NCBI GenBank assembly: GCA_963082975.1
Contig: OY720346.1
Location: forward strand, 71,911,267 to 71,975,266
Direction of reading: 5' to 3'
From: Labia minor
Lineage: Eukaryota > Arthropoda > Insecta > Dermaptera > Spongiphoridae
Length of the DNA stretch: 64,000 bases
Within the stretch, counting starts at the first letter, position 1; every line of letters begins with the position of its first letter. The translations under genes were made by a program, and so were the position numbers. Positions 1 through 62,488 of the stretch are shown here, one piece after another. The notes below the pieces were generated by a model. That model did not search any database. It was not told the origin of the DNA and saw only the letters and a program-made list of their open reading frames with translations.

Positions 1-776
1 TTCATCAAATAGCCTTTTTATCTATGTTCAAAAAATATACATAACAGATATCTTTAAGAATTCTCATTAATTTTAATGGTATAAAATATATTCATAATTA
101 TCTTCAAAATGAAAATCTATCCTGAATTCAAATTTTATGCTTCAGAATAATAATAATCGGAGTAAAACAAAAGGAGTTAGTTACTAAAAGTAATTAATCG
201 CTAATTGTATTAAAATTAATTAAATATAATTCTCATTTTGATGAAAAATCCATAAAATAAATTAATCAAATATAACTTCTATTTATAAAGTGACAGCAAG
301 TAGTAAATGAAGGATTTTTATGATTTTTATTTCATAATTTTAATTAAAATTAAGGATATTGTAATTAAACAAGTACGACAAAATAAATTCATAAAGTGTA
401 TTATCAAATATTTATTGAAAGTTTTAGTATTCATTTAATAATATATTTCAAATAATGTTTTGCGTTGTGTATGAAAGAATACATCCATAAACTTTGTCAG
501 GCTTATAGAAAAAGTATTTGATTCTTTCAAGTCCATGAGAAAAAGCTTATTTTATAAAAAATGTTTATATTTATATTATATATAGTTTCTTTTAAAAATT
601 GTATTTTGTTTAATTGAAAAGGAGAAACAATAATAATACAACAAAAGGCAAATTTATACCGGTTAGTTTATAAAGTCCTGAACTTGTAATGGGGAATGTG
701 ATAAAAGCTTCTTATTTTATGAAAATTCATTCAGTTTGAGCCAATTCTAAAAATATATACGTATATATACTTTTAG

Positions 777-3947: not shown

Positions 3948-6900
3948 ATGGCTAATGAATTAATCGAATCTTTTGAAAAGGAACATTTTTTGATACAATT
4001 AGAAATGGAAGAAGTCAATCATCAAATAGAAAATTCTTAAAATAATGATTTGACTCTCCTTTTAATTGAGAAATTAATCGAGAGAAGTAAAAAATTACAA
4101 GTAGACATCGTTGATAATAACTTGTATAAAAATAAAACTTGTAAATCTATATTGAGTGGTGTTTCTAACTTAATCAAAGATTTGAATCTAAATTCGGGTA
4201 ATATTCATACTAAAATGAATAAAATAATTAATACTCCTTTAAAGATTGTTTCAGATAATTCAGATATTAAACCAAATGTCAACATATCGCTTCCACAGTT
4301 GCATTTAGAAAAATTTAATGGGGATTTGGATAAATGGAAATCTTTTGAAACACAATTTCTCAACACAGTCGATTTGAGAATGGATCTTACACCTACGCAG
4401 AAGCTCATGTATTTAAGAAGTTTTCTGCTGGAGAAGCCATTGAAAATAATACATCATTTGGAAATCTACGATCATAATTATTCTCATGCATTGAAATTAC
4501 TTAAAGAAAAATATGATAAAAAGAAACGGACAATTTTTAATTTATTGGATAAATTATTTAACTTGCCAAAAATAACGGTATCAAATTATAATCATTATTC
4601 TAATCTAGTCGATAACACTAAAAGTTTAACTGAACATTTGCAAAATTATGATACTAATATTGAAGCTTGTAATAATTTACTTGTATATTTGGCTTATAAT
4701 AAATTAGATTATACAGCCCAAACACAATGGGATCTTCATCATCAAAGTGATGAAATGCCTCATTTAAAAGAATTATTAGAATTTATAGAACATTTAAGTA
4801 ATACGTGTTTAAAATCACAAAAAAGATTTAATAATGAAAATAATTTTGGCTCCAATTCTAACAATAATAAATTCGTATCTAAACCAGTTAAAAAATCATT
4901 TAATATTACTTTGGTTAAAAGAAATAATTGTCATTTTTGTAATAAAAATCATAAATTGGAAATTTGTAAATTATTTTTAGAATTGGAACCGAGAAAGAGA
5001 TTTGATTTTGTAAAAAGTAAACGTCTTTGTATAAAATGTTTAAACATTGGACATACACTTAAATTCTGTCGATCGACAATAACATGTAATATTTGTAAAG
5101 GTTCTCCTAATGTATTATTACACTTTTCCAGATCTGAGGCGGTATCGAGGATTGAACACATAATTGAACAATCAGGCTTAGAATCTCAGGGACAGGAAAC
5201 TCAAATACAACAGTCTAACTTTTCAAAAAATCAAGAAACCTCTTCGTCGCTTACTCGGTCATTGAATGCACATTCCATGGGTTCGAACTTCACTTCTTTA
5301 TTGCCTAGGGCCATAATAGTCTTAGAAGATAAATCAGGTATTAAATATGACATTAAGGTTTTTCTCGATCAAGGATCCGAATCCAGTTTCATTTCGAGTG
5401 AATTGGTTTCTTATTTTGACTTAGAACTCTTTCCATCAAATGTTATAATTGAAGGTATAAATAACATTCACCTTGTAGAGGCTCGGAACAGGGTTAATTT
5501 AACATTTGGTTCGACTATCGAGCAATCGTTTAAAATAACATCATCATTTCTTGTAATTGATAATCTATCTTTTACAATTCCTTCAAGAAAACTCGAAAGG
5601 AATCAATTTGAATTTACAAAGGAATTAAATTTGTCAGATAAAACTTTCCACATTCCAAATAAGATACATGTTCTCATTGGAAATGATCTTTTTCCAAAGC
5701 TCATTAAAAATAATATTATATATAATTCGAATAAAAGCTTAATGGCAATGGATTTACATTTGGGATTTATTGTTTCGTGAAATGTTTTGACAAAATCATG
5801 TTTTGCATTAAAGGAAAAAGAATCCAAGAGAATCGATTCACAAGAGATAAATGATAATATTAAAAAATTTTGGGAGATTGATAATTTCGTAGATGTCGAA
5901 CCTTCGAGAATAATTTCAAATGCAGAATCTACATTTTTAGAATCGATAAAGCATAATTCGAATGGTAGATTAGAAATCGCATAACCATTTAAAAATGATT
6001 ATATATCTTTAGGTAAATCATTTAATCGAGCTAAAATTGTTTTAGATAAACAAGTATCACAATTTAGCAACGATATTATACTTAAAACTGAATACGAAAA
6101 TTACATAGAAGATTTGAAAAATCGTGATTTTATTGAATTCGTTGGGTATGCCCATGAACACCAATCTAATGATAGTGAAAACTCTTATTTCCTTCCCCAC
6201 TTCGCTGTTCGGAAAGAGGGAAAGGAAGGGATTAGAATCGTATTAAATGGATCTTCGAAATCTTCTAATGGGTTTTCTTTCAACGACATATTAGAGTCTG
6301 GAGACATTCTCCATAAGGATATTCGTTTAATTATCAATCGCTTTCGAATGTTTAAATATGTTGTTACTACCGACATAGAAAAGATGTTTCTTAACATTGA
6401 GATTAACCCAAAGCATCGTAATTATTTAAAATTTCTTTGGAAATCAGAAGTTTCGGATCCAATTGCAATTTATCGTTTCAAAGTAGTACCTTTTGGTTTA
6501 ACAGCCAGTCCATTTTTAGCACTTAGATGTATAAAATATTTAGCTGAACATTTTAAAGAAATATATCCTCTTGCTTATGAAAAGATAAAAAATTATTTAT
6601 ATGTTGACGATTGTCTTTTGGGGGATAATTCTAAGGAAAGGCTGTCCCAAGTGGTCTCAGAAATAACATCAGTTCTTTCCTACGGTCAATTTCGTTTGAA
6701 TAAATGGACTACCAATAGCCCCGATTTGTTAGATAATTTAGTGAATAGACAAGTAATAACGAAAGAGAAAGAAAATTTGACTTTTAACTCGTGTAACAAA
6801 GTATTAGGAATTGCATGGGACAATATTAATGATTATTTCATATTTAAGTATAAAACTTATTTAGTCGTTAATTTAACTAAAAGGAAATTATTGTCTTACC

Positions 6901-7404
6901 TTGCTAGTTATTACGATCCACTCGGATGGTTAACTCCTATCTTTATTAAATTGAAAATTTTATTACAATATTGATTTTTTTTGAAAATTGATTGGGATGA
7001 AGCGATCCCTATAGATTGTCAAAGTATTTGGACTCGATTTTCTGAGCAAATACATTTATTAGAAAATATAAAGATACCTCGGTGTATATCACATAGTAAT
7101 AGTATTACTTATCAAATTTTCGCTTTTTGCGATGCCTCGGAAAAGGCATACGCCTGTCTAATTTATTTAGTCGGTCATATCTTCTAATTTAATGATCGCT
7201 CGAAGTAAGCTAGCTCCATTGAAGACTATAAGCTTACCCCGATTGGAACTATTAGGAGCTGTTCTCTTAATACAAACTCTAAAATTAATTTTACCTTCTT
7301 TAGAGGTTGAGGTGAAAATGCATAATTTATTTTGTGATTCAAAGATTGTTCTTTCCTGGATTCACAGTGCACCACGTAAATTCAAGACCTTTGTAGCCAA
7401 TTAA
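3948..7404 (+). pseudogene. BEL/Pao gag-pol, decayed and 3'-truncated
   Basis: Retrotransposon polyprotein remnant. The frame starting at ATG 3948 carries gag, then three Cys/His knuckles (C-x2-C-x4-H-x4-C types, about 4930-5130) in the arrangement usual for BEL/Pao, an aspartic protease with FLDQGSESS (about 5364; Q replaces the usual S/T after Asp), an RT with YVDD at about 6600, and the start of RNase H with FAFCDASEKAYACL (about 7122). In-frame stops occur at 4038-4040, 5778-5780, 5982-5984 and 6972-6974, and the frame moves by one base near 7185-7195. Similarity ends at about 7402, so most of RNase H, the whole integrase and the 3' LTR are missing. Frame is held for more than 3 kb despite four stops, so decay is mostly by substitution. 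Not functional. Confidence 0.9.
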
Positions 7405-23370: not shown

Positions 23371-24414
23371 TTAATTTTTAAAACGAACTGGTAGTCGAAC
23401 CTTCCTTCCGCTTCTCGATGTTTTTTCTTGATCCTCTGGTTTCGAGTCTTCATTTCCGTCTTGCGGTGGCCGATCATCCGTCGATGCTGGAGCTTCTTCA
23501 GTGTTGAGTAGATATGCCGGTTTGAGCCGATCGATTGAGATATTTATCTCACGACCTTTCACGTTTACCAAGAAATATTTAATTTCTCTGGCTTTTACTT
23601 CAAATGGGCCTTCATAAGGAGGTTCGAGTGATTTTTTAACTCTATCCACCCTTACGAAAACATGTGTGCATTTGTTTAATTCTTCTTTGCATTTTTCAAA
23701 ATTTTTCTTTGTTTCTTCGGTCCAATCTATTATACTTCTATCATTTTTCTTTGAACCTTTTAAATATTCATGGAGTGGTGCTTGAGTTTCAGCCGCGTTT
23801 TTTAAATATCTCCTATAGAAGTTTATTAATCCTAGAAACGTTCGGAGGTCTCGAACTGCTTCCGGGAGCTTGTATTCTTTTATGATTTGTATTTTTTCCA
23901 TTTGTGGCTTCGAACCTTCAGGTGTAATTAAATACCCTAAAAATTTTAATTCCTGGACGCCAATTTCAGACTTTGAAATATTTATATGAAGACCGTATTG
24001 TGACAACCGTTGTATTACTGTTTCTAAATGTTTTTTATGTTCCTCTTCGTCTCTTGAGGCTATTAGAATGTCATCTATGTATGGAAACACAAAATCTACG
24101 CCTTGAAAAACTTCATTTATGAATCTTTGGAACGTAGCAGGGGCATTACGCAATCCAAAGCTCATAACATTAAATTCAAAGAGTCCAAAGGGGGTTATCA
24201 CTGCTGTTTTGTGTTTATCTTGTTCGGCTATTGGGACTTGAAAGTACGCCTTGAACAAGTCTAATTTTGAAAAAATCTTAGTATTTTTTAAAATGTGATT
24301 GAAATCTTCTATTCTAGGTATAGGATATCGATCTGGAATTGTTTTATCATTCAGTCTGCGATAGTCTCCGCAGGGCCTAATTGATTTTCGACTAGGTGTA
24401 GTGGGCTTGCCCAT
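23371..24414 (-). pseudogene. RT fused to integrase C-terminus (in-frame deletion)
   Basis: From the frameshift at about 24400 it covers the RT palm (FSKLDLFKAYFQVPIAEQDK; catalytic YIDD, encoded at about 24071-24082) and thumb (FLGLINFYRRYLKNAAETQA). At about 23665, within NKCTHVFVRVD, it jumps directly to the integrase tail. The GPY/F module PPYEGPFEVKAREIKYFLV is next, then INISIDRLKPAYLL and a basic C-terminus. RNase H, the HHCC finger and the DDE core, normally 500-600 residues, are absent with the frame kept. The exact join preserves an open frame to the natural stop. It could not integrate by itself. Confidence 0.85.
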
Positions 24415-25121
24415 TCAGATTTCGATGGTCTAATTATATCATTATTTAACATGAGATGGAATTCTTCTTTTGCTAATTTTAATCGATGAGGGGCTAATGG
24501 TCTAGCTTTACTATGTACTGGTGGACCTGTTGTATTTATATAATGCTTAACGTTATGTTTCCATTCATCTTTTTTTATTATGTTTGGTTTGCCTATTTCT
24601 GGATATTTTTTAAATATTTCCGAAAATTTTGTTTTACTGTTAAGCGTTTTAATGCATAAATTTTCTGAGATTGACGTAATATTGCCTTTGGTTGTGAGGT
24701 TGGTTACGCCATCTATTAATTTTTTATTTCTGATATCCACTAGTAAATTAAATTGGTTTAAAAAATCTGCACCTATTATCCCTCTCCCGACTTTGGCTAC
24801 TACAAATTCCCATTGAAAATCTCTTCGCAGGCTTAAATTTAATTTTAAAGTTTTTAAACCATATGTTGGAATTTCCGTGCCATTTGCTGCATATAATTTA
24901 TATTCAGATTGGGTTTTCTCAAAATTTCTTGGTGGAGGAATTACTGAAATATCTGCGCCGCTATCAATTAAAAATGTCTTTCCGGTTTCTTTGTCTTGAA
25001 CAAATAGTCGGTGGCGTGCCTTTATTTCGAAATTGGTGGCGGCAGGGCTGGCAGCGCGCTCTGCCGCGGCCTCTAGTTTCCCGACCAAGCGCACGGCTGT
25101 ACGCATTTGTCTGCGCGGCAT
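24351..25121 (-). pseudogene. Protease and start of RT, CsRn1-type element
   Basis: Contains the retroviral-type aspartic protease motif TFLIDSGADISVIPPP, then the linker and the RT N-terminus (KEEFHLMLNNDIIRPSKSEW, ASPLHLV). The frame then fails: at about 24385-24400 the sequence continues in another frame as CGDYRRLNDKTIPDRYPIPR. This is a frameshift in the middle of RT, so no intact RT can be made from this copy. Confidence 0.8.
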
Positions 25122-25819
25122 TTTTTCCCAAATTTAAAATGGAAGTAGCAATATTTGCCATCGGGCTTATATCTACTTTTCGACCTAGCACTTCTTGGGC
25201 CGTTGCCTCGCCCAGAGCTTCGGCTTCTCCGGGGGTTTTTTAAATTTTCAATTTCCAGTTGTAATTGTTCGATTTTATTAATTAACATCTGGTTGGCATC
25301 ATTATTTTGATTTGATTTGTTGATGCTCTCAATGTGGTCCTGGTTAGTGTCGTAAATTTTGTCTGCCATTTTAGCGATATTTTCTAAATTTTCCTCGCTA
25401 ATGGAAATTATTTCCCTAGTTGATTTTGGTAATTTATCTAACCACATCATTTTTAATGCGGAATTACTTAAATTTTTTCCCGCCAATGCTTGCATTTTAC
25501 TTAAAATCTGGCTAGGTTTACCAGACTCTATTTGAATGTTATTTAATAATTTTTTTAATTTTGTCAATTCACTCTCGCCGAAATGTTCGATTAATTTTTT
25601 CTTTGATTTTGCGTATTTGTCTGAGCCTGTGCCCATTATAATTTCCTCAATGATTTCCACATACTTTGACTCTAATTGGGATATCAAATAATTATATTTT
25701 GTTTTATCTTCCGTAATTTTATTTATTTCGAATTGAGCCTCAAGTTGATGAAACCAGATATCAGGCTTCCCTGGCCAAAAAGGAGGAATTTTTACGCTTA
25801 CCTTTTCAATAGTGTCCAT
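25073..25819 (-). CDS. Gag of the CsRn1-type element
   Basis: Open frame read from an in-frame ATG (MDTIEKVSVKIPPFWPGKPD, complement of about 25819); the frame is open further upstream to 25864. The capsid-like part includes IPPFWPGKPDIWFHQLEAQF and LKKLLNNIQIESGKPSQILS. A C-terminal zinc motif, CYFHFKFGKKCRADKCVQPC, is the Cys-His-x-Cys-Cys form that sets CsRn1-like elements apart from the usual knuckle. It packages element RNA. It overlaps the protease frame by about 50 bases, so Pol would need ribosomal frameshifting. Confidence 0.8.
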   Translation of the reverse strand: MDTIEKVSVKIPPFWPGKPDIWFHQLEAQFEINKITEDKTKYNYLISQLESKYVEIIEEIIMGTGSDKYAKSKKKLIEHFGESELTKLKKLLNNIQIESGKPSQILSKMQALAGKNLSNSALKMMWLDKLPKSTREIISISEENLENIAKMADKIYDTNQDHIESINKSNQNNDANQMLINKIEQLQLEIENLKNPRRSRSSGRGNGPRSARSKSRYKPDGKYCYFHFKFGKKCRADKCVQPCAWSGN

Positions 25820-25930
25820 GTTGAATCTTGGTTTTTCTGTCTTCTTTTTTATTAAATTTAACACTAATTTTTGTCTTCACTTGTTCACAGTATTTATTTC
25901 GCCACTTAAAATCACGTCGGGGTCACCAAT

Positions 25931-29565: not shown

Positions 29566-29816
29566 TGTAATGTATTGGAAATATATTATATAATATACAT
29601 TATTATATAGTGAGAATGTGTTAGAATAATAAGAAGGAAGTTGAGTTGGCATTCTTTAAGCCGTGGGAAAAATATAATCAAGGGTGATCGTTATGTAAGA
29701 AAAGAAAGATTACTAATGGGTGCAACGGAGACAGAGGATGAGAGAAGGAGATGGCGAAAGGGGAAGGAGGGGAGGCTCAAGGTGAGATGAACCTAAAGCG
29801 AGCGAGAGTGTGGCAG

Positions 29817-29821
29817 TCAGT
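29817..29821 (+). promoter_or_regulatory. Candidate initiator (TCAGT) in the LTR
   Basis: TCAGT matches the arthropod initiator. It lies 50 bases upstream of the LTR ATG and in G/A-rich DNA without a clear TATA box, as in TATA-less insect retroelement promoters. Inference only. Confidence 0.4.
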
Positions 29822-29870
29822 GGAGAATGTACACGAGAGAATAAGTGATTGAATTATCGATAATTATAAG

Positions 29871-29931
29871 ATGTGTGTGTTAATTTTGATCTGTTTAGTG
29901 AATCTGTGTTCCTGGCCAGGGGAGTGTGAGT
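29871..29931 (+). CDS. LTR-encoded signal-peptide-like exon ending at splice donor
   Basis: ATG at 29871 opens a short frame with a Cys/Leu/Ile/Val core, MCVLILICLVNLCSWPG, that looks like a cleavable signal peptide. Left unspliced, it stops at TAA 29931-29933. A consensus donor GTGAGT starts at 29926, leaving phase 1. The acceptor at 36513 would restore phase so that the frame enters env at its ATG 36531. Env itself lacks an N-terminal hydrophobic segment, so this exon probably supplies it. I infer a subgenomic env mRNA. The 3' LTR carries the same ORF copy (from 38694) without function there. Confidence 0.6.
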
Positions 29932-30434
29932 AAAGCAAATTTAATTACATTAAATGCATTTGAATAAATTCGTATGAAATTGATTAAATAAATGAATTAA
30001 TTTGGATAAGATATATTAAATAAGTTAATGTAAAATTGATTGAATAAATAAAGTAAATAATATGAATTATGATTAACTGAATTAATATAAAATTAATTAA
30101 ATAAGCAAGTTGAATTAAATAAGTTATAATTGAAAGAATTAATGTAAAATTGATTGAATAAATAAATTAAATAATATAAATTATGATTGAAGGAATTAAT
30201 GTAAAATTAATTAAATAAACAAGTTAAATTAAATAAATTGTATGTGAATATATTAATGATTTAAATTTGATTTATAATTGTATCCTAATTAAATGAACAA
30301 ATTAAATAAATTATACTTGAAATAAATTAAATGATGTTTTTAATAAACAATTAACACATTCGTCGCATATAGGTGGCATGATCTCGTACCTTCTTTCTAG
30401 CATTGGTGCAAGTAAGTACGCGGCCCATTACAAC

Positions 30435-30451
30435 TGGTGTCAGGTGTGGGG
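30435..30451 (+). other. Primer-binding site, tRNA-Leu-like
   Basis: TGGTGTCAGGTGTGGGG two bases after the LTR. The TGGTGTCAG start is the common tRNA-Leu-type PBS of arthropod gypsy elements. Confidence 0.75.
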
Positions 30452-30693
30452 TTGAGGGTTTAGGGGTAGAGAGTAAAATAATTAAGCAAAATTTTGAGGA
30501 TTGCATCGATAACATTTAATTAAAATGGGAATATTTTGTTAATAGTTAATTCCTTTCAAACCAAAGATAAAGTAAAATTCTGAGAGCAGGGATACGGAAA
30601 TTTGGGAGTATTTAAGTGAGGGAGAGTACGATAAAATTAAACCCTAGACCTGGTGTTTGCTCAACATCGAAGTTGAAAGCACCCCCACGAAAC

Positions 30694-31617
30694 ATGGAGG
30701 AACAGATCCAGAATTTGGAACAACAATTAGGACAATTGCAGGCCCAGTTATCAAATCTGACTGGGGCGGCTGGTCCCGTGGAGGTACGCGTCAATCGAGA
30801 CCCTAATTGGGGAATAGTGGAGGGGATGTCGCCCTGGACGGGGACAGGACAGATTGACCTATTCCTCAATAAATTTGAGCAATTGGCCAAAATGGGTAAC
30901 ATACCCGAGGACCAGAGGAGGGAGGTCTTGGAATGGAAGCTGGAGGGAACGGCGTTGAGAGTCGTCAGAAATTTACCAGGAGATATCACTTGGGAAGGGG
31001 TGAAGGAACAACTGAGAGCGAGGTTCAAGCCGGAAGACACGGCCACCCAAAGGATGAGAATGGTCCTGACTATGGGTCAAACTCCGCAAGAGAGTGCAGC
31101 GGATTATCTAGATAGATTACGAGATGCAATGGCCGGGATAGATTGGGCGGGTACAGGAATTACCCTATTGGCTCGGTTTCTAGAAGGGCTCAGAGGCGAA
31201 CCGGGTAGACAAGCCCGAGTAGCAGCCCCCACGACCGAGGAAGGAGCCTTACAGATTGCGCAACGGTGGGAAAAAGAGGGAAGGAATGTCCCGGAAACCC
31301 GCTTTACCTACCCATGGAGACGTAGAGACAACACACGGTTCACGAGTAACCCTGCGATTAGGGGCAGGTGTTACAATTGTAATCGGGAGGGACACATGGC
31401 TCGGATGTGCCCCATAAAGAGGGAACCGAATAGTACCATTGGGGGTACAGAGAAAAGAGGGAACATCAAACCTCGTGAAGGATGCTATAGGTGCGGGAGT
31501 AGGGAGCACTTTATAAGGCAGTGTCCCCGACCTCCCCAGGTGAAGTGTGTGGCCGAAGAAAACATCCATACGCAAGTGGCCCCAAAAGAGTTCGGACTCC
31601 CTCCGCCCCAAGAGTGA
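30694..31617 (+). CDS. gag: Gag polyprotein of the endogenous retrovirus
   Basis: 308 codons from ATG 30694; the frame is open a little further upstream, to a stop at 30613-30615, but has no earlier ATG. Residues 1-25 form a coiled-coil-like Glu/Gln helix (EEQIQNLEQQLGQLQAQL). About 40-210 match the Ty3/gypsy capsid pattern (WTGTGQIDLFLNKFEQLAKM; GQTPQESAADYLDRLRDA). Two CCHC zinc knuckles follow: CYNCNREGHMARMC and CYRCGSREHFIRQC. Function: assembly of the particle and genome packaging. The last 37 bases overlap pol from the frameshift site at 31581. No breaks. Confidence 0.95.
   Translation: MEEQIQNLEQQLGQLQAQLSNLTGAAGPVEVRVNRDPNWGIVEGMSPWTGTGQIDLFLNKFEQLAKMGNIPEDQRREVLEWKLEGTALRVVRNLPGDITWEGVKEQLRARFKPEDTATQRMRMVLTMGQTPQESAADYLDRLRDAMAGIDWAGTGITLLARFLEGLRGEPGRQARVAAPTTEEGALQIAQRWEKEGRNVPETRFTYPWRRRDNTRFTSNPAIRGRCYNCNREGHMARMCPIKREPNSTIGGTEKRGNIKPREGCYRCGSREHFIRQCPRPPQVKCVAEENIHTQVAPKEFGLPPPQE
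31581..31587 (+). promoter_or_regulatory. -1 ribosomal frameshift heptamer CCCAAAA
   Basis: Lies in the gag reading frame as C CCA AAA, which is the X XXY YYZ form, 28 bases before the gag stop codon (31615-31617). Slipping back one base enters the pol frame, which is open through this site. Pol has no convincing ATG of its own upstream. A GC-rich region follows (CTCCCTCCGCCCC). Good candidate for Gag-Pol synthesis. Confidence 0.75.
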
Positions 31618-34600
31618 GTCCGAAGAGATTCGGATCTCTCCTGGTAACCGCAATCAACACCAATGCGGATAAGGCTACTAGAGTGAGACTGAGTATAGGG
31701 GGACGGGAATTGGAGATGCTAGTGGACACGGGGTCGGAAGTGTCGATCTTAAAAGCTCCTATTCCAGATATCCCTGTAATGGGATATCCGCGAAATGCGT
31801 GTGGAGTTACGGGAGATCTGTTGCCCATTAGTGGTCAACAAATGCTTCCGATACTGGTGACGAAGAAAAGAATCATGCATCCATTCATTATTTGCGATGT
31901 ACGAATAGCGGGAGATGGGCTCCTGGGAATGGATGTGTTGACCGCTTTGGGAGCGGTGATTGATGTGCAGAAAAGGGAGTGCCGTTGGAACGGCACAGCA
32001 CGAGGTAACGGGAAAGGGAAAAGGGGCGTTGGGGATGGGAGTAATTTGGAGATTATTCCCCTGGAACGACCTAGAGGAGTAGTTAGCACTGAAACTGATG
32101 ACACGGAATTTGGAGCCATTAGTGGCATTCCGCCTGTCACCGGGATAGAAGTGCAAGAGGAGGTCGTGAGAGCGCGAGTAATTGGCACTAGAAAGGATGA
32201 CACGGAATTTGAAGCCATTAGTGGCATTCCGCCTGTCACCGGGATAGAAGGAGGGCCAGAAGAGGACGTGAGGGCAAGGGTAATTAGCACTGGGAAAGAG
32301 GACACGGAATTTGAAGCCATTAGTGGCATTCCGCCTGTCACAGGGGTAGAAGGATTGCCAGAGGAGGTCGTGAGAGCAAAACAGAGGAAAGTAATTCCGG
32401 CGTGGTCCGAGGTAGTGGTCTGGGCTGAGGTAGATAATGCACAAGATGGCTCAGAAATGGTAGTGGAACCGGTTATATTGGCGCAACCAGTGTTACGAGT
32501 AGGGCGGACTTGTGTGAGAGTCGAGAAAGGAAGTGTACCGGTCAGAGTAATAAACTTATCTAGTAGGGAGGCAGTGATAGATCGTCGCCAACAACTTGCC
32601 AAAGCCAGCACGATACCAATATTAGACCAAAGTTGTATTTGCCGAGTGCAGGTGGTTGAACAAGAAACCAAACATCAATGGGTATCTAAGTTCAAGGAAA
32701 AGTTGACCCACCTGCCTAAAAATCACCAACATCAGATGTTCGAGCTATTGAACGAATATGCTTCATTGATGTATGAAGAGGGAACAACGGGATTGGGTTG
32801 TGCACTAGGTGTGAAGCATAAAATTGTCACTGAAGGATCGGCTCCCATCTTTAAACGACCCTATAGAGTGCCGCATGCGATGAGACCCGAAGTAGAAAAA
32901 CAGATCGGGAAGATGCTAGAAGAAGGAGTGATTGTAGAATCAGATTCGCCATGGTCAGCACCCGTAGTACTAGTACCCAAAAAGAGTACAGACGGGAGGG
33001 TTAAATATCGATTTTGTACTGACTACCGAGCTCTGAACAGTGTAACGAAGATTCCGGTGTATCCGATACCTAATATCACGGAGACGCTAGAATCCTTAGG
33101 AAATGCACAATATTTCACTACCCTAGACCTGGCAAGTGGGTACCACCAAATTCAGGTAGCTCCAGAAGATAGAGAGAAAACCGCATTCACTACTTTTATG
33201 GGGCATTTTGAGTACGCAAGAATGCCGTTCGGTTTAGCCGGGGCTCCAGCTACTTTCCAACGCTTGATGGATCGGGTGTTGGCTGGAATTAAGGGAAGCG
33301 AATGTTTCGTATATCTAGATGATGTGGTAGTATTTGGTACAACATTTACAGAACATCAAAGAAGGTTGCGAAACGTATTCGAATGCCTCCGACAGGCAAG
33401 ACTGCAAATACAACTAGAGAAATGTCATTTCGCGGTGGGAGAAGTGGGGTACCTGGGGCATCGGGTGGGGAAAGATGGAGTTCGACCCGATCCAAAAACA
33501 GTGGAAGCGATTAATAACTACCCACAACCGAAAAACGTAAAAGAGATACAACAGTTTCTGGGACTCTCAGGGTGGTACAGGAGGTTTATCCCTGAGTATG
33601 CTAATATTGCGAAGCCATTGACGGTCCTCACGAAGAAAGACCAGAAGTTCCAATGGGGGAAGGACCAGGAACAAGCGTTTCTTTCTCTCACAAAATTCCT
33701 GTGTAGTGACACCGTACTCGTTTATCCAGATTTCACACTGCCGTTTATCTTGGCCACAGACGCCTCGAACGAGGCTTTAGGCGCAGTGTTATCACAGCGT
33801 CGAGACGGATATGAAAGGCCGATTGCGTACGCCAGTCGAACGTTGAACAAGGCCGAAAGTAACTACACAGTAACGGAGAAAGAACTACTTGCTGTAGTGT
33901 GGGCGACGCAACAATTTCGGTGTTACCTATATGGGAGGAAATTCCAACTGATAACTGACCACGCGGCCTTGAAATGGATGTTAAGTCTGCATGATCCGTC
34001 ACAGCGGTTGACACGATGGGCGCTACGACTGGCGGAATATGACTATACAGTAGAACATCGACCGGGGAAGTTACATCGGAATGCGGATGCTCTCAGCAGG
34101 GTGAAAGTTAGTGAGGAAGGCCCTGAGTCGAAGGTGCATACGATTCGAACTTTATTGAGAACCACAGCGACCGAAAAAGAATGGCGCGAATCACAAGATC
34201 AAGATGAGGACTGTCAGCGGTGGGCACGGAGCGGCAAAGCCCAAGCAAGATCCGATGGGTGTTTGTACGTAGTAGATGATCACCAAACCCGTCTAATGGT
34301 ACCCCGAGAAAAGGTGCCCATGATACTGGAAGAGAATCATGATAGACCCACGGCGGGGCATAGAGGGGTACAGGGAACCTTATCACGAATCCAGCGACAA
34401 TATTTTTGGGAGGGAATGGAACGGGACGTAGAGTCCTGGGTGAAACAGTGTAGTATATGTACCCAGATGAAGTCGCCAACTGGACTTCGAGCTCCCGTTC
34501 AACCACATGAGATCCCCAGAAGGCCCTTCCAAATGATAGCACTAGATGTCGTGGAATTCCCGAAGTCCACCCGAGGTAATAGATACCTTTTGACGGTACT

Positions 34601-36488
34601 AGATCACTACTCCCGGTACTTGGAAGCGATACCCATGCCGAACCAAACAGCGGCCAGAGTGATCCGTGCGCTCACGGAAGAAGTAATAAGCCGGCATGGG
34701 ATCCCAGAAATCATCTTAACCGATCAAGGAAGAAATTTCACCTCTAAACTATTCCTGGGACTATGTCAACGTTTAGGAATAAAGAAGGTACAAACAACAG
34801 CCTATCATCCAGAATCGAACGGACGAGTGGAAAGGGTACACAAAACAATAAATGAGATGCTTCGACCGTGGGTGAGAACAGACGGTAAAGACTGGGATGT
34901 TTGGTTGCCATACGCGTTAATGGCTTATCGGAGCGGACCCCATTCCAGCACTGGGTTTTCGCCGAATGTGTTAGCATTCGGCCGGGAAACAGACATTAAT
35001 ATCACCGTAAAAAATCAACATCATCAAGAAGGGCCAGATAGATGGGCATATCTAAACGACTTGTGCGACCGGATAGAACATCTACAACAACGGTCGATAA
35101 ATCAGTCGGAAGCCAGGTTACAGGCGAGCAGGAAACAGGCTAATAAACATCGAAAATTCCGAAGGTTAGAGGTAGGGGATGAAGTATATGTATACAACCC
35201 CGTTCTGAAAGAGTCAGAAGCTCGGAAATTTTATAAGCCTTGGAAGGGCCCCTACACGATAGCGACAAAAAATTCCGAAGTGGTATATGGAGTGTGGTGG
35301 AGCCCCACTAAGATTGTCAACATACATGTGAATCGTTTGAAACCAGCCAATATAGAACGCCGCGGAGTGAACCGTGTATATGAACACACGGGAGATATGT
35401 TGATGGCACCCAAAAATTACGCCTTAGCTCATTGCGTATCGGCCGACTTACGCATGTCCCAAGGTGTTGCAAAAACTATACGAGACACCTATCCGAGGCA
35501 CCCTTGCGAAAAGATCCCAGAACCAACCATCGGAGAGATCCTAGTACAATACCACCCAGATAGAGTAATACTTCACTGTGTCACGAAAACAAAAGCGAGT
35601 GACAAGCCGCGCCCTGAAAACGTGAAAATGACAATCAAGAACCTTCTACTGAAGGCGACCGAGGTAGGAATCCCAGCATTGGCGGTTCCGCGCTTAGGAT
35701 GCGGAATGGACGGCCTCAAATGGGTACAAGTCAAGAAGTGGCTAAAAGAGCTAACCCCCGACTACCCGGTGAGAGTACACATATACACACCAGCGGCCAT
35801 TGGAACCCCAACGCCAACTGATGATGAAGAGGAGAAAAACCGAATTTGGGAGAGCGATTCGGAAGACGATGTGTGGTCAGGGGAAGAGGACATTTCATTG
35901 AGTCCGTGGCGAGAACAGAATGACTCCCAGCCCAATTGGAATGGAGTAGGACAACTAGATTATTCCGCAAGACCCAGCGAGATAGAGGAGATCGAGCCCG
36001 AAGGGGAGAAGGAAACACCTCCTGTAATTAATTTAGAAAGCCAAGATGAAATAGACATCGCAGAAGCACTAAGGGAAGAGGAATCCCTCAGAATTGACAG
36101 AAGAGATCCAGAGTCTGGGCGACAGGAGACAGAGACCGGTGAGCACGTTACTCAAGGGGAAACAGGACAAACTTCGCAGGATGAAGAAAATCAAAGGGAG
36201 GAGGGGTGGGAGGATATAGATTCCCCGGCTAGCCCGGAGAAATCACCCAACACTCGGGACCAGAATGCACACCCTCCTCACACACCACCCAATAGAGATG
36301 TCCCGGTTAGGGGTAGCGTGGAGGCCCAACCCAGTACCAGTAGCCCGGGGACAAGACCTCCCACAACAGCCGGGGCGACAAAGAACCCTAATACGAGTAA
36401 ACCACCCGTTGGAGTCCCACCAAAAAAGAGAGGGGTAGGGCGTCCTAAAAAGAGAACCATTTGGAATTTCCATAAAAAAAAGGAGTAA
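31581..36488 (+). CDS. pol: Pol polyprotein with C-terminal macro domain
   Basis: About 1635 residues, entered by frameshift, with no internal stop. Order by nucleotide: aspartic protease (LVDTGSEVSIL, about 31722); a threefold 33-34-residue repeat (32097-32385); RT with YLDD at about 33311; RNase H with ATDASNEALGAVLSQ (about 33754). Integrase has its HHCC finger at about 34330-34470 and its D-D-35-E at about 34545, 34722 and 34830. A GPY/F module (KPWKGPYTIA) follows at about 35236. Next are the macro domain (about 35376-35800), an acidic low-complexity tail, and a basic AT-hook-like end. A typical gypsy Pol ends soon after GPY/F; this one continues for about 400 more residues. It copies and integrates the element. 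Confidence 0.95.
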   Translation, partial: PKRVRTPSAPRVSPKRFGSLLVTAINTNADKATRVRLSIGGRELEMLVDTGSEVSILKAPIPDIPVMGYPRNACGVTGDLLPISGQQMLPILVTKKRIMHPFIICDVRIAGDGLLGMDVLTALGAVIDVQKRECRWNGTARGNGKGKRGVGDGSNLEIIPLERPRGVVSTETDDTEFGAISGIPPVTGIEVQEEVVRARVIGTRKDDTEFEAISGIPPVTGIEGGPEEDVRARVISTGKEDTEFEAISGIPPVTGVEGLPEEVVRAKQRKVIPAWSEVVVWAEVDNAQDGSEMVVEPVILAQPVLRVGRTCVRVEKGSVPVRVINLSSREAVIDRRQQLAKASTIPILDQSCICRVQVVEQETKHQWVSKFKEKLTHLPKNHQHQMFELLNEYASLMYEEGTTGLGCALGVKHKIVTEGSAPIFKRPYRVPHAMRPEVEKQIGKMLEEGVIVESDSPWSAPVVLVPKKSTDGRVKYRFCTDYRALNSVTKIPVYPIPNITETLESLGNAQYFTTLDLASGYHQIQVAPEDREKTAFTTFMGHFEYARMPFGLAGAPATFQRLMDRVLAGIKGSECFVYLDDVVVFGTTFTEHQRRLRNVFECLRQARLQIQLEKCHFAVGEVGYLGHRVGKDGVRPDPKTVEAINNYPQPKNVKEIQQFLGLSGWYRRFIPEYANIAKPLTVLTKKDQKFQWGKDQEQAFLSLTKFLCSDTVLVYPDFTLPFILATDASNEALGAVLSQRRDGYERPIAYASRTLNKAESNYTVTEKELLAVVWATQQFRCYLYGRKFQLITDHAALKWMLSLHDPSQRLTRWALRLAEYDYTVEHRPGKLHRNADALSRVKVSEEGPESKVHTIRTLLRTTATEKEWRESQDQDEDCQRWARSGKAQARSDGCLYVVDDHQTRLMVPREKVPMILEENHDRPTAGHRGVQGTLSRIQRQYFWEGMERDVESWVKQCSICTQMKSPTGLRAPVQPHEIPRRPFQMIALDVVEFPKSTRGNRYLLTVLDHYSRYLEAIPMPNQTAARVIRALTEEVISRHGIPEIILTDQGRNFTSKLFLGLCQRLGIKKVQTTAYHPESNGRVERVHKTINEMLRPWVRTDGKDWDVWLPYALMAYRSGPHSSTGFSPNVLAFGRETDINITVKNQHHQEGPDRWAYLNDLCDRIEHLQQRSINQSEARLQASRKQANKHRKFRRLEVGDEVYVYNPVLKESEARKFYKPWKGPYTIATKNSEVVYGVWWSPTKIVNIHVNRLKPANIERRGVNRVYEHTGDMLMAPKNYALAHCVSADLRMSQGVAKTIRDTYPRHPCEKIPEPTIGEILVQYHPDRVILHCVTKTKASDKPRPENVKMTIKNLLLKATEVGIPALAVPRLGCGMDGLKWVQVKKWLKELTPDYPVRVHIYTPAAIGTPTPTDDEEEKNRIWESDSEDDVWSGEEDISLSPWREQNDSQPNWNGVGQLDYSARPSEIEEIEPEGEKETPPVINLESQDEIDIAEALREEESLRIDRRDPESGRQETETGEHVTQGETGQTSQDEENQREEGWEDIDSPASPEKSPNTRDQNAHPPHTPPNRDVPVRGSVEAQPSTSSPGTRPPTTAGATKNPNTSKPPVGVPPKKRGVGRPKKRTIWNFHKKKE
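32097..32385 (+). repeat. Threefold 33-34-codon repeat in Pol
   Basis: Units begin at 32097, 32196 and 32298 and share (D/E)DTEF(E/G)AISGIPPVTG followed by an acidic, EEVVRAR-like segment. They lie between protease and RT. Period is 99 and then 102 bases, and the frame is preserved. Role unknown: a spacer or a binding motif. Confidence 0.92.
35376..35800 (+). other. TARG1/OARD1-like macro domain (part of Pol)
   Basis: Domain within Pol, about 25 residues after the GPY/F module. The N-terminal strand and ligand loop read GDMLMAPKNYALAHCVSADL; a GVAKTIRDTYP helix comes next. The Lys of CVTKTKASDKP and the Asp of PRLGCGMDGLKW match the two catalytic residues of the TARG1/OARD1 class, which removes ADP-ribose from glutamate/aspartate and hydrolyses O-acetyl-ADP-ribose. 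The order and spacing of these motifs and the closing VRVHIYT strand match a whole domain of about 140 residues. It looks catalytically competent. I infer removal of host ADP-ribosylation or processing of ADP-ribose metabolites. Confidence 0.85.
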
Positions 36489-36513
36489 TGTTTCTTTGTT
36501 TCTTCTCTCACAG
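36489..36513 (+). promoter_or_regulatory. Splice acceptor for env mRNA
   Basis: A 20-base pyrimidine-rich tract (TTTCTTTGTTTCTTCTCTCA) ends in CAG at 36511-36513, right after the pol stop (36486-36488) and just before env. With the donor at 29926 it would make the env message in phase. Confidence 0.75.
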
Positions 36514-37787
36514 GCCAAACTAACGATGCGATGGGGAAGCAGGCGGGGGAGAGGGAGGAGATAATGCCACTGGGAGTCTATTTTGAACCAGTCGACGATG
36601 TGGTAATTACGGGAGATGAGTGGCGGATTGTAACGGAAGTCGACGTGAAAGAGATTCAAGGGAAGGTATCGGTCATCAGGAATTCTCTGGAGAAATTACA
36701 GGATGACCGATACGCTCTCTTAGAAGGAGAACCTTTGAAGGCAATAGATTTTAAGGAGGATATGTCCTATATTAAGACCAGTTTCGAGATGACGGAGGGG
36801 ATTATTTCACATTTGAGTGAAATGCTACCCCCGGCGCGAAGTCGACGTGGTCTGGTGGACGCGGGGGGGCACGTTTTAAAATTCATTTTCGGAACTTTAG
36901 ATAATGAAGATCTGGTGGAATTGAATACCAGATTACAAAATTTAAATGAAGTTAATGAACAAATGAGTCATTACTTCGATGATCAAATCACAGCATTAGA
37001 CCAACTCGACCATAAAACTAATCAAAATTTCGACTTGATTAAACAGCATGCTAGAACATTATTGGAATTAGCCACTTTGATAGACCGAAATTTTAATTGG
37101 ACACTTGGACGGCAAAACGCAGCCGAAAAATTTTTTCAAGAAGCGTTAGAATTAATGACTAAGACACGACGCCTGGGGCAAGCAGTGACGTCAGTTCGAA
37201 ACTGGTTAGAGGATGTCCTCGGGATTGTTCAATCGGCGGCAGCGGGACGCCTCGATGCGCGATTGATCAACCCAAAAATGTTATTAGAATTAATGATAGA
37301 TATAAATAAGAAACTCCCCGAAGGACAGGAATGGCTGACCCCGCTAGAATTACGATTTGTTTATAAGTACTATGATACATCATTAGTGAAAGTGTATAGT
37401 GTCAAGAACGCTATCCGTTTCGTGATCTCACTTCCGTTGAAGACAGTATCCCAGTCAGGAACAATATATTTCGTTCATGTTGTGCCGACAGCTCGGGGGG
37501 GAGTGAGGACCAAGCTAGTGAAAATTTCCCCGTGGATCCTCGTAACGCATGACCACCAAAAATATACCACGCTAGAACATAGATATGTGGACAGCTGCCG
37601 GGGACGGGAGCCGATGGTGTGTCAACAGCCTATCCCACTCGTAGCCCGATCCCAACTCAGTTGTGTCAGCGCCCTCTTCTTCAAACACGCGGAGCATCTA
37701 GACAGTTACTGCTCATGGGAAGTGTTATTAGGGGCGATTACTGATTTTTTGGGAACCATCATATTCTGGTTCCCATTGGTATTATAG
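36514..37787 (+). CDS. env: F-type envelope, N-terminal two thirds (frame interrupted)
   Basis: First exon-2 base is 36514, after the acceptor CTCTCACAG; the first ATG in frame is 36531 (418 codons). The region after it begins like mature errantivirus Env, without its own signal peptide. A furin-type site R-S-R-R is encoded at 36837-36848 and is followed by the Gly-rich hydrophobic fusion-peptide-like GLVDAGGHVLKFIFGTLDNE. After it comes a long coiled-coil-like heptad region (LNTRLQNLNEVNEQMSHYF). This is the architecture of the insect-retrovirus/baculovirus F family of fusion proteins. The frame ends at TAG 37785-37787 in sequence that continues in another frame, so this copy does not encode a full-length membrane-anchored Env. 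Confidence 0.85.
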
Positions 37788-38328
37788 TATATCACGACCT
37801 CAAGTGGCCCGGCAAAGTTGCCGTACCAATAGCAAACCTAGATTCGATGATATCCAACTACATCAACAAGGCATCGTTACCGTTCCGGAGGGATGTCAGC
37901 TATATACAAATCAACATCTGTTGATGTCTAGGAGCGCGGGTCAATCGAGAATCACGATACCAACTCCAGTGATATTTACCGGCCATAAAGAAGAACCCCT
38001 AATAACAGAGACATCACGTAAGGAGAACACAATAATGGCGGAGGGACTGAAAAGCTTGGAGTCGATAAGAGCTGAGTTGGGAAGGACCTCGATGAGTGTT
38101 CCATTATCCAGGTTGCGGGAGGAGGCGAGGTTGATACAGGGCAAAAGGAAACAGCATCTTATCGCTGGCGGGACCGGTGGTGGAGCAGTCTTAGTGAGTC
38201 TGTGTGGACTGGTGGGGTATCTTTGGTGGAAGAAGTGTACACGGAGGAAGAGGAAGGCCGGGAAACTGCAGAATCAACTGGGAAGTGATGTGGACATAGA
38301 CAAAACAGAGGAGGGGTCGAACTGTTGA
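37788..38328 (+). pseudogene. env: Envelope C-terminal third, in a shifted frame
   Basis: The env sequence goes on one frame over, open from before 37745 through 38328. It encodes Cys-containing ectodomain (CRTNSKPRFDDIQ, GCQLYTNQHLLMS), an amphipathic helix (SIRAELGRTSMSVPLSRL), one membrane segment (AGGTGGGAVLVSLCGLVGYL) and a basic cytoplasmic tail (KKCTRRKRKAGK). The frame change from the N-terminal part falls between about 37740 and 37785, where there is a T6 run. The most likely reading is a recent single-base indel. Confidence 0.75.
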
Positions 38329-38332
38329 AAAG

Positions 38333-38368
38333 GATTGTTTCGGGAAAAACCTTTACCCCGAAACAATC
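38333..38368 (+). promoter_or_regulatory. Perfect 12-bp stem-loop after env
   Basis: GATTGTTTCGGG (38333-38344) pairs with CCCGAAACAATC (38357-38368) around a 12-base loop, followed by a T run. It starts four bases after the env stop and ends just before the PPT. Possible RNA export, stability or packaging element; function unknown. Confidence 0.7.
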
Positions 38369-38374
38369 TTTTTT

Positions 38375-38388
38375 AAAGGGTGGGGGAG
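38375..38388 (+). other. Polypurine tract
   Basis: AAAGGGTGGGGGAG directly abuts the 3' LTR and would prime plus-strand DNA. Confidence 0.9.
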
Positions 38389-39251
38389 TGTAATGTATTG
38401 GAAATATATTATATAATATACATTATTATATAGTGAGAATGTGTTAGAATAATAAGAAGGAAGTTGAGTTGGCATTCTTTAAGCCGTGGTAAAAATATAA
38501 TCAAGGGTGATCGTTATGTAAGAAAAGAAAGATTACTAATGGGTGCAACGGAGACAGAGGATGAGAGAAGGAGATGGCGAAAGGGGAAGGAGGGGAGGCT
38601 CAAGGTGAGATGAACCTAAAGCGAGCGAGAGTGTGGCAGTCAGTGGAGAATGTACACGAGAGAATAAGTGATTGAATTATCGATAATTATAAGATGTGTG
38701 TGTTAATTTTGATCTGTTTAGTGAATCTGTGTTCCTGGCCAGGGGAGTGTGAGTAAAGCAAATTTAATTACATTAAATGCATTTGAATAAATTCGTATGA
38801 AATTGATTAAATAAATGAATTAATTTGGATAAGATATATTAAATAAGTTAATGTAAAATTGATTGAATAAATAAAGTAAATAATATGAATTATGATTAAC
38901 TGAATTAATATAAAATTAATTAAATAAGCAAGTTGAATTAAATAAGTTATAATTGAAAGAATTAATGTAAAATTGATTGAATAAATAAATTAAATAATAT
39001 AAATTATGATTGAAGGAATTAATGTAAAATTAATTAAATAAACAAGTTAAATTAAATAAATTGTATGTGAATATATTAATGATTTAAATTTGATTTATAA
39101 TTGTATCCTAATTAAATGAACAAATTAAATAAATTATACTTGAAATAAATTAAATGATGTTTTTAATAAACAATTAACACATTCGTCGCATATAGGTGGC
39201 ATGATCTCGTACCTTCTTTCTAGCATTGGTGCAAGTAAGTACGCGGCCCAT

Positions 39252-39255
<4 letters not shown>
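38389..39255 (+). repeat. 3' LTR of the endogenous retrovirus (867 bp)
   Basis: Same length as the 5' LTR and identical apart from one base that I found by eye. Confidence 0.95.
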
Positions 39256-61190: not shown

Positions 61191-62488
61191 TTTTTTTTTT
61201 TTTTTTTTTTTATATATATATTATTTCAGAAAATATACAATCTGCCTATTTTAATATAGGCAATAAGTAATTTTTATAAAAAATGAAATACAAACAATAC
61301 ATACATATCATTGGCAATACAATATCATGCCAAGCAACATAATTGCACTTAACACACACATATTAGTTTTAAATATTATACACTAAACACACACACTCAT
61401 CCCGAACATTTCGTAAACACGCACTTCACTTTGTCACACATGAATGTCAAAATTTTCTATATTAGCGAGATCCAATATATCATATCTTTTTAATCTCTTG
61501 ATTGTATCATCCCAAACTAGTAATTTTTTAACTAACACATTTGGATGGTTTTCCATTTTTTTAATATACTTTTCACTTAGGATGTTTATTTCATCATTTA
61601 AGTTTTTAATTTCTAAGTCCCTTTGTATGAATCTAATTGGAACATACCACGGGGCTCTTACAAGATTTTTAAGTGTTTTGTTTTGAAAACTTTCAATTTT
61701 TTTTATGTTAGTTTTTGAGGCTGATCCCCAGAGTTGGATCCCATACATCAGTTTTGGTTTGATTATGGATTTGTATAGAAGAACTTTGCTTTCTAATCCT
61801 AGGCTAGAATGTCTCCCTAAAAGCCAATATAGTTTTCTATACTCTTCCCTTGAGTGGACAATTCTAGCTGAAATATGTTTTTTCCAAGTCAAGCGCCTAT
61901 CTAGATGGATTCCTAGGTATTTTGCCTCATCTTTTTGCGGAATGATAGATTTATTCATGTATATTGGTGGGCATGTTTGCCTATTTAAGTTGTAGGTGAC
62001 AAATATAGATTTGGTTGCATTTATCTTTAACCGCCATCTTTTAAACCAAAGAGATAACATATCGAGATGAGTTTGAAGTCTTTCAGATACGACATTATGA
62101 TTTACATTTGTTGAAATGATTGCAGTATCATCAGCGAAAGTTGCTACGTCATTATAAGGAGAGAGAGGCATGTCTATCATATATAATAGGAAAAGGGCTG
62201 GCCCTAGAATACTACCCTGAGGGACTCCTGCTCTAATTTGCATTAAGTTGGAGGAAGAACACCCATATTTAACAAAAAAGTGTCTATTCGATAGATAAGA
62301 CTTTAATAATTGATAAAATGTGTCTGGTAAATAGTTTTTAATTTTATAAATTAACCCTGTGTGCCAAATTTTATCAAAAGCCTGTGTTATATCAAGATAT
62401 ACTATTCCACAGTAAGATTTACTTTCAAATGCATCTTTAATTTTTTTAACTACCCTATGCACCTGTTCGATAGTAGAGTGTTCTTGAC
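61191..62488 (-). mobile_element. 5'-truncated Jockey-type LINE with 10-bp TSD
   Basis: GAAATCAAAT lies on both sides (61181-61190 and 62489-62498). On the minus strand the element runs from the truncated RT to a poly(A) tail (T run 61191-61211). The 3' UTR is about 61212-61433. Target-primed insertion is clear. Confidence 0.92.
61434..62488 (-). pseudogene. LINE ORF2 fragment: reverse transcriptase C-terminal part
   Basis: One intact frame from the truncation point (it enters upstream of 62462, in EHSTIEQVHRVV) to a stop at 61434. RT motifs: YLDITQAFDKIWHTGL, GVPQGSILGPALFLLYMID, and the catalytic FADDTAIIS. The thumb follows (AKYLGIHLDRRLTWKKHI), then a C-terminal LKPKLMYG-like region (SIIKPKLMYGIQLWG). 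No RNase H follows, as in Jockey/CR1-type ORF2. The endonuclease and start of RT are lost by 5' truncation; no internal stop, so the insertion is young. Confidence 0.9.

Follow-up and report, generated by a model that had tools for sequence, protein, structure and literature searches.

In the dermapteran insect Labia minor, a Ty3/gypsy retroelement carries a macro domain of the TARG1/OARD1 class fused in frame to its Pol polyprotein, downstream of the integrase. The element lies between paired long terminal repeats (LTRs) at positions 29566-39255 of a window of 64,000 nucleotides from contig OY720346.1; the window is the whole stretch of DNA analyzed, and the features of the element lie on its forward strand. 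Based on sequence and fold comparisons, the fused domain may act as an integrase-tethered ADP-ribosyl hydrolase that clears host ADP-ribose during integration, a proposal whose chances we judge to be about even.

The Pol open reading frame (ORF; 31521..36488 in the ORF list, searched with Pfam in pieces) encodes 1655 amino acids in a single frame, which stays open and free of stops from the integrase across the complete macro domain. An earlier sequence-only reading had proposed this in-frame fusion, and the placement of the domain largely stood. Its start at 35376 was correct, while the last in-frame residue ends at 35798 rather than 35800, and the gap between the integrase GPY/F-type stretch and the initial GD measures about 15 residues rather than about 25. 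Over 35376-35800, the Pfam Macro profile (PF01661) matches with E 4.6e-8 and 33.4 bits (cut-off 22). In phmmer searches against PDB sequences, human TARG1/OARD1 entries (4j5q, 4j5r, 2eee, 2l8r, 2lgr) rank first at E 1.4e-19 to 1.9e-19, followed by the DarG macro domain 5m31 at E 1.7e-6. Identity to TARG1/OARD1 is about 30%. The predicted fold places TARG1 entries at Foldseek ranks 1-8 and VIA-align ranks 1-5, with residues 1..139 of the model aligned on 14..152 of 4j5r. The Pfam, phmmer, and Foldseek matches rule out a chance resemblance, and the domain belongs to the TARG1/OARD1 class, as first suspected. The motifs GD, ALAHCVSADL, VTK, and GCGMD are all present. According to the phmmer alignment and the structural-alignment ranges, domain residues 71 (Lys, codon 35586..35588) and 112 (Asp, codon 35709..35711) pair with TARG1 Lys84 and Asp125.

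The fusion is widespread in the host genome, which was scanned over 604 Mb in 71 contigs. The macro domain query gave 126 candidates, all scored, and 125 matches, which were sorted into families by identity to the window domain; the resulting counts are lower bounds. Family A, to which the window copy belongs, comprises 57 places that are whole or almost so (96-100% identity), plus fragments. Family C accounts for 33 places (38-42%), family D for 23 (26-27%), and family E for one decayed copy (L081; 32%), whose integrase stretch is 61% identical to that of A and lies in a different frame from its macro stretch. L083, the OARD1-like gene of the host, and a small number of other places make up the remaining matches. 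Between A and C, identity reaches 50% in the integrase and 40% in the macro domain; the corresponding values for A and D are 42% and 28%. At least three related Pol families (A, C, and D), plus the decayed E, carry the domain. The many copies recovered in the macro and integrase searches rule out a single odd copy or an assembly join. A host OARD1 gene adjoining an element is likewise ruled out, as L083 lies on another contig in two stretches of different frames, whereas the Pol domain is uninterrupted. A further TARG1-like stretch (L087, C2:71977224-71977815) sits beside a low-complexity, coding-like stretch, and no integrase place was found near it in the searches made.

Integrase comparisons define how far the fusion extends. 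For the integrase core, 150 of 1561 candidates were scored, and the identity line was set at a gap between 48% and 43% after the list had been inspected. A macro match lies within 2 kb in 113 of the 114 places at 48% identity or more, two of which are parts of one copy; the lone exception is a fragment at C10:23541716. Below the line, none of the 36 places scored has a macro match within that distance, and the three of these Pols that were fetched end soon after the GPY/F-type stretch, with no notable macro match there. The domain therefore marks one Pol lineage among the places scored.

Both residues of the TARG1 mechanism are retained in the copies examined from families A, C, and D. The Lys and Asp pair occurs in all full copies fetched, 30 of 30 in family A and 22 of 22 in family C, and in all five sequences of a small alignment (A twice, C, and the proteins P0002 and P0003 described below). 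The Asp is invariant across a 62-row alignment. In family D, both residues are kept in the three rows that reach that far (L082, L084, and L085). The window element is young, with one mismatch between its LTRs in 867 bp (99.885% identity). The ratio of nonsynonymous to synonymous substitution rates (dN/dS) for the family A macro domain is 0.10-0.21 in 10 of 11 haplotypes, similar to that of the integrase, and the domain of this family is under purifying selection. Youth, selection, and catalytic conservation had all been anticipated from the letters. Neither a failed macro match nor copies that lack the domain or are catalytically dead throughout were encountered among the related copies examined.

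Such retention of the domain and its key residues in many copies suggests that these elements must deal with the ADP-ribose damage tag upon insertion. Integration intermediates carry gaps and flaps to which PARPs respond, so a hydrolase joined to integrase would act on the integrase itself, on nearby chromatin, and perhaps on DNA ends. In the proposed sequence of events, an active ADP-ribosyl hydrolase would travel with integrase and cDNA into the nucleus. Reverse transcription and integration leave DNA ends, flaps, and gaps, and host PARPs would respond to these by placing ADP-ribose on integrase, chromatin proteins, and DNA ends. The fused domain would then strip Asp/Glu-linked and DNA-linked ADP-ribose, and removal of the tag would keep the intermediate joinable and blunt damage signaling. 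TARG1 is described as removing Asp/Glu-linked and thymidine-linked ADP-ribose (PMC8501950), as well as the DNA ADP-ribose made by PARP1 at telomeres (PMC11102865).

The Pol tail may add a DNA-holding component. Pol reaches about 229 amino acids past the macro domain, first through an acidic and probably disordered stretch (35799..36422, judged from its composition) and then into a basic end, KKRGVGRPKKRTIWNFHKKKE (36423..36485, read directly), which resembles an AT hook. Pfam searches of the tail up to E 1 returned no match in either part, including any AT-hook profile. Of the 31 distinct family A tails fetched, 26 have an AT-hook-like motif, and the family D rows L082 and L084 carry a similar one, RRGRPPKRKIFNFHKRK. 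In both families, this acidic tail with its AT-hook-like end would keep the assembly on AT-rich DNA, the setting in which family A copies are found. Insertion sites were sampled at the 5' junctions of the window copy and 20 further family A copies (of 57). The 20 bp before the LTR average 14.3% GC, compared with 26.1% across the remainder of the window (P 1.5e-4; n=21) and 23% in sequence 30-200 bp away (P 5e-5). This AT-rich targeting fits the presence of an AT hook. Target duplications, identified by string matching, were present in all 11 family A copies with the LTR end motif in the 3' piece, at 4 bp in 10 and 5 bp in one; the 3' piece held no LTR end for 9 of the 20 copies fetched. The duplication of the window copy is ambiguous in its AT repeat.

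Several observations weigh against an integrase-tethered hydrolase held on AT-rich DNA. The AT-hook-like motif occurs in none of the 23 family C tails fetched, and integrase alone could cause AT-rich insertion. The family C ligand loops read Gly-Lys (or Gly-Glu) in place of Gly-Asp, and Tyr-Gly in place of His-Cys. Family D retains the fold, Lys, and Asp without the GCG loop. Constraint in this family is weak and non-significant, with dN/dS values of 0.36 and 0.55 in two comparisons. Loop loss together with weak constraint indicates that hydrolysis may be dispensable in family D, and loss of the GCG loop implies that activity of the domain may differ between families.

The main rival is a chromatin reader, since a chromodomain steers integration from the same place in Pol. 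Here, the macro domain would bind ADP-ribosylated chromatin at DNA-damage or active sites and direct integration there, with catalysis being incidental. The domain does occupy the position that the chromodomain takes after the integrase C-terminal module of chromoviruses (PMC12440569 and PMC3605345). The AT-hook-like motif that partners the domain in A and D, the non-random, AT-rich insertion sites, and the persistence of the fold in family D despite its altered loop point in the same direction. However, a pure reader would have no need of the Lys and Asp, which are retained in all the full copies fetched from families A and C; TARG1 itself is a hydrolase, and AT-richness is no proof of an ADP-ribose signal. 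We regard a reader function as possible but rather unlikely.

An antiviral or anti-silencing role ranks next, and appears doubtful. The domain would in this case reverse host ADP-ribosylation of Gag, RNA, or silencing factors outside integration, as in some RNA viruses. The best viral structural matches include proteins of insect-associated viruses, namely Kadipiro virus VP8 and others from thrips-associated negev-like and virga-like viruses. Silencing of L1 by SIRT6 through KAP1 modification, as outlined in PMC4695847, offers a parallel, and macro fusions also occur in two proteins that show no integrase domain in Pfam searches, one LINE-like (long interspersed nuclear element) and the other a reverse transcriptase (RT) protein. 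Against this stand the fixed fusion to integrase and the DNA-binding-like tail, which point to the nucleus, and the putative status of such an antiviral pathway in the host. The notion of a structural passenger, a folded spacer or solubility module within Pol, draws on loop loss and weak constraint in family D but is very improbable given integrase-like selection in A and the catalytic pair kept in A and C.

TARG1-like fusions recur in other organisms, as seen among the best 120 of 246 protein relatives listed, of which 16 were inspected as sequences and others within alignments. The LINE-like protein (P0002) comes from the springtail Allacma fusca and carries the macro domain at its C-terminus, with a Pfam score just under the cut-off. 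The unnamed RT protein (P0003) carries it at the N-terminus, where phmmer finds the macro part and Pfam does not. Pfam likewise gives no Macro match for the family D domain of L084. In P0047, an integrase p58 C-terminal module precedes the macro domain, and in P0046 the macro domain precedes an integrase H2C2 domain. P0047 matches the leafhopper protein P0013 (Macrosteles, annotated as 'OARD1-like') at 56% over 182 residues, integrase-side linker included, and a Gonioctena protein at 49% over 136 residues. The two Macrosteles 'OARD1-like' proteins are probably retroelement Pol remnants, a warning that some proteins under this annotation may be misread. In a Gonioctena quinquepunctata protein (P0103), a CCCH zinc finger follows a TARG1-like macro domain that shares its clade in the macro tree with the leafhopper remnants. 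Queried for longer fusions, P0002 found only itself among 119 candidates. In a scan of viral contigs, 16 loci (L057-L072) in contigs of 13-231 kb encode TARG1-like relatives; equivalent scans returned nothing for the P0047 or integrase-macro piece queries.

The Pol macro domain probably derives from an animal OARD1 coding sequence. The host L083 gene occupies two or more stretches that differ in frame and thus probably contains an intron inside the domain. In the macro tree, one clade unites A, C, and E (99/97), and another unites P0047 with the Macrosteles and Gonioctena proteins (99/96); 17 of 48 inner branches are well supported, the bootstrap is not fully settled, and family D is a long branch of unsure placement. 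The tree does not support a recent capture from the OARD1 gene of this host, as the clade of A, C, and E is not joined to L083. A single origin for all retroelement macro domains is 25 log-units worse and is not rejected by the approximately unbiased test (AU p 0.082). Joining A, C, D, and E gives p 0.54, and adding the P0047, Macrosteles, and Gonioctena group gives p 0.48. The fusions elsewhere, in integrase tails and in the springtail LINE, were possibly captured independently, which rests on their differing architectures more than on the tree because the topology tests reject no single origin.

Comparison with known systems places the element near errantiviruses, the insect endogenous retroviruses among the Ty3/gypsy elements (Metaviridae). 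Its LTRs, Gag, and order of protease, RT, RNase H, and integrase assign it to Ty3/gypsy by domain order, and its F-type env (PF12259, E 9.8e-25) and the 4-bp target-site duplications of family A are errantivirus-like. An env related to baculovirus F is reported for the errantivirus clade (PMC12992720). Unlike errantiviruses, the element has a macro domain and an AT-hook-like tail after integrase, and, among the env rows scored, env accompanies family A and not C or D. Chromoviruses share the use of an extra domain at the C-terminal Pol position, but there it is a chromodomain; Pfam searches of the Pol pieces that begin at 34221 or later found none (E up to 0.1, and up to 1 for the tail search). 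The nearest precedent comes from epsilon-like endogenous retroviruses of fish, for which a review (PMC4977317) credits Basta et al. 2009 with macro-domain ORFs. There too a retroviral genome acquired a macro domain, although the virus family and hosts differ and the review describes additional ORFs. TARG1/OARD1 itself (C6orf130; terminal ADP-ribose glycohydrolase) differs in that the element's domain sits inside Pol, fused to integrase. The DarG macro domain of the DarTG antitoxin is the next fold match after TARG1, with an NCBIfam match below cut-off, but it belongs to a bacterial antitoxin and its similarity is lower. Among the titles and abstract starts listed in full-text literature searches, with most subscription papers outside their coverage, none reports a Ty3/gypsy Pol that contains a macro domain. 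What is described here is a Ty3/gypsy element whose C-terminal accessory domain belongs to a known enzyme class.

A broader proposal, to which we give somewhat less than even chances, is that the element represents a macro counterpart of chromoviruses. Its integrase-borne ADP-ribosyl hydrolase would edit the PARP signal at integration, perhaps on cDNA ends. TARG1-like domains may have been captured repeatedly by retroelements (at the C-terminus of integrase, ahead of the integrase zinc domain, at a LINE C-terminus, and at an RT-protein N-terminus), which would turn ADP-ribosylation into a broad battleground for retroelements and host DNA repair. An active domain would mean that a mobile element has taken the enzyme with which cells erase ADP-ribose into its integration machinery, and that a second class of accessory domain occupies the chromodomain's place in Pol. 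The role of PARP signaling and DNA ADP-ribosylation in retroelement integration would then become testable through a small soluble domain.

The remaining architecture of the window copy is as follows. Its LTRs of 867 bp (29566..30432 and 38389..39255) have ends read directly as TGTAATG...CATTACA. The primer-binding-site region (tggtgtcagg..., 30433..30460) lies directly 3' of the 5' LTR and presumably corresponds to a Leu-type tRNA. Gag (30616..31617) contains Retrotrans_gag (PF03732, E 6.2e-6) and CCHC zinc knuckles (PF00098, E 1.9e-11). Pol continues with the aspartyl protease (31677..31961; PF00077, E 1.3e-5), the RT (33024..33467; PF00078, E 2.3e-31, a match inside the searched piece of a domain that begins further upstream), and RNase H (33729..34040; PF17917, E 1.1e-41). 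The integrase comprises an H2C2 zinc-binding domain (34299..34475; PF17921, E 2.8e-21), a catalytic core (34518..34811; PF00665, E 4.6e-19), and a C-terminal GPY/F-type module (35247..35345), for which PF22938 scores 22.3 bits, under its cut-off of 27, and KPWKGPY...HVNRLKP was read directly.

The env gene of the window copy is split between a first part (36531..37787), which carries the Baculo_F match, and a C-terminal part with a membrane-span-like stretch (37804..38328) in a different frame. In the genome env search (100 of 329 candidates scored, 102 env rows), a frame of 612 amino acids is present in 42 rows that cover residues 1-407; longer env frames thus occur in other copies. A shorter frame of 432 amino acids appears in 9 family A rows including the window, and because all of these match the window env part at 100% (rounded), a short-env subgroup of family A seems to have multiplied although its own env is not full-length. 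All 59 family A places tested have an env row at a distance of 5 kb or less, as against none of the 33 family C or 23 family D places in this search. Another 38 of the 102 rows, mostly short N-terminal pieces with stops, have no A, C, or D macro place within 5 kb and are probably remnants of env-bearing elements of another kind or of greater age.

Further repeats and retroelement pieces were also noted. Three tandem copies of a unit of about 100 bp lie within Pol between protease and RT (32048-32350), spaced at multiples of three. A 57-bp tandem repeat occurs within both LTRs (30015-30258 and 38838-39081), and LTR starts vary between family A subgroups. Two family C copies at C9:51812098 and C9:51833497, 21.4 kb apart, share an identical open frame of 444 amino acids and possibly reflect a segmental duplication. 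Elsewhere in the window lie a Pao-type piece (4050-6974; DUF1759, Peptidase_A17), a piece with DUF7041, RVP, and RVT_1 (23371-25864), and a LINE-like RVT_1 piece (61434-62462).
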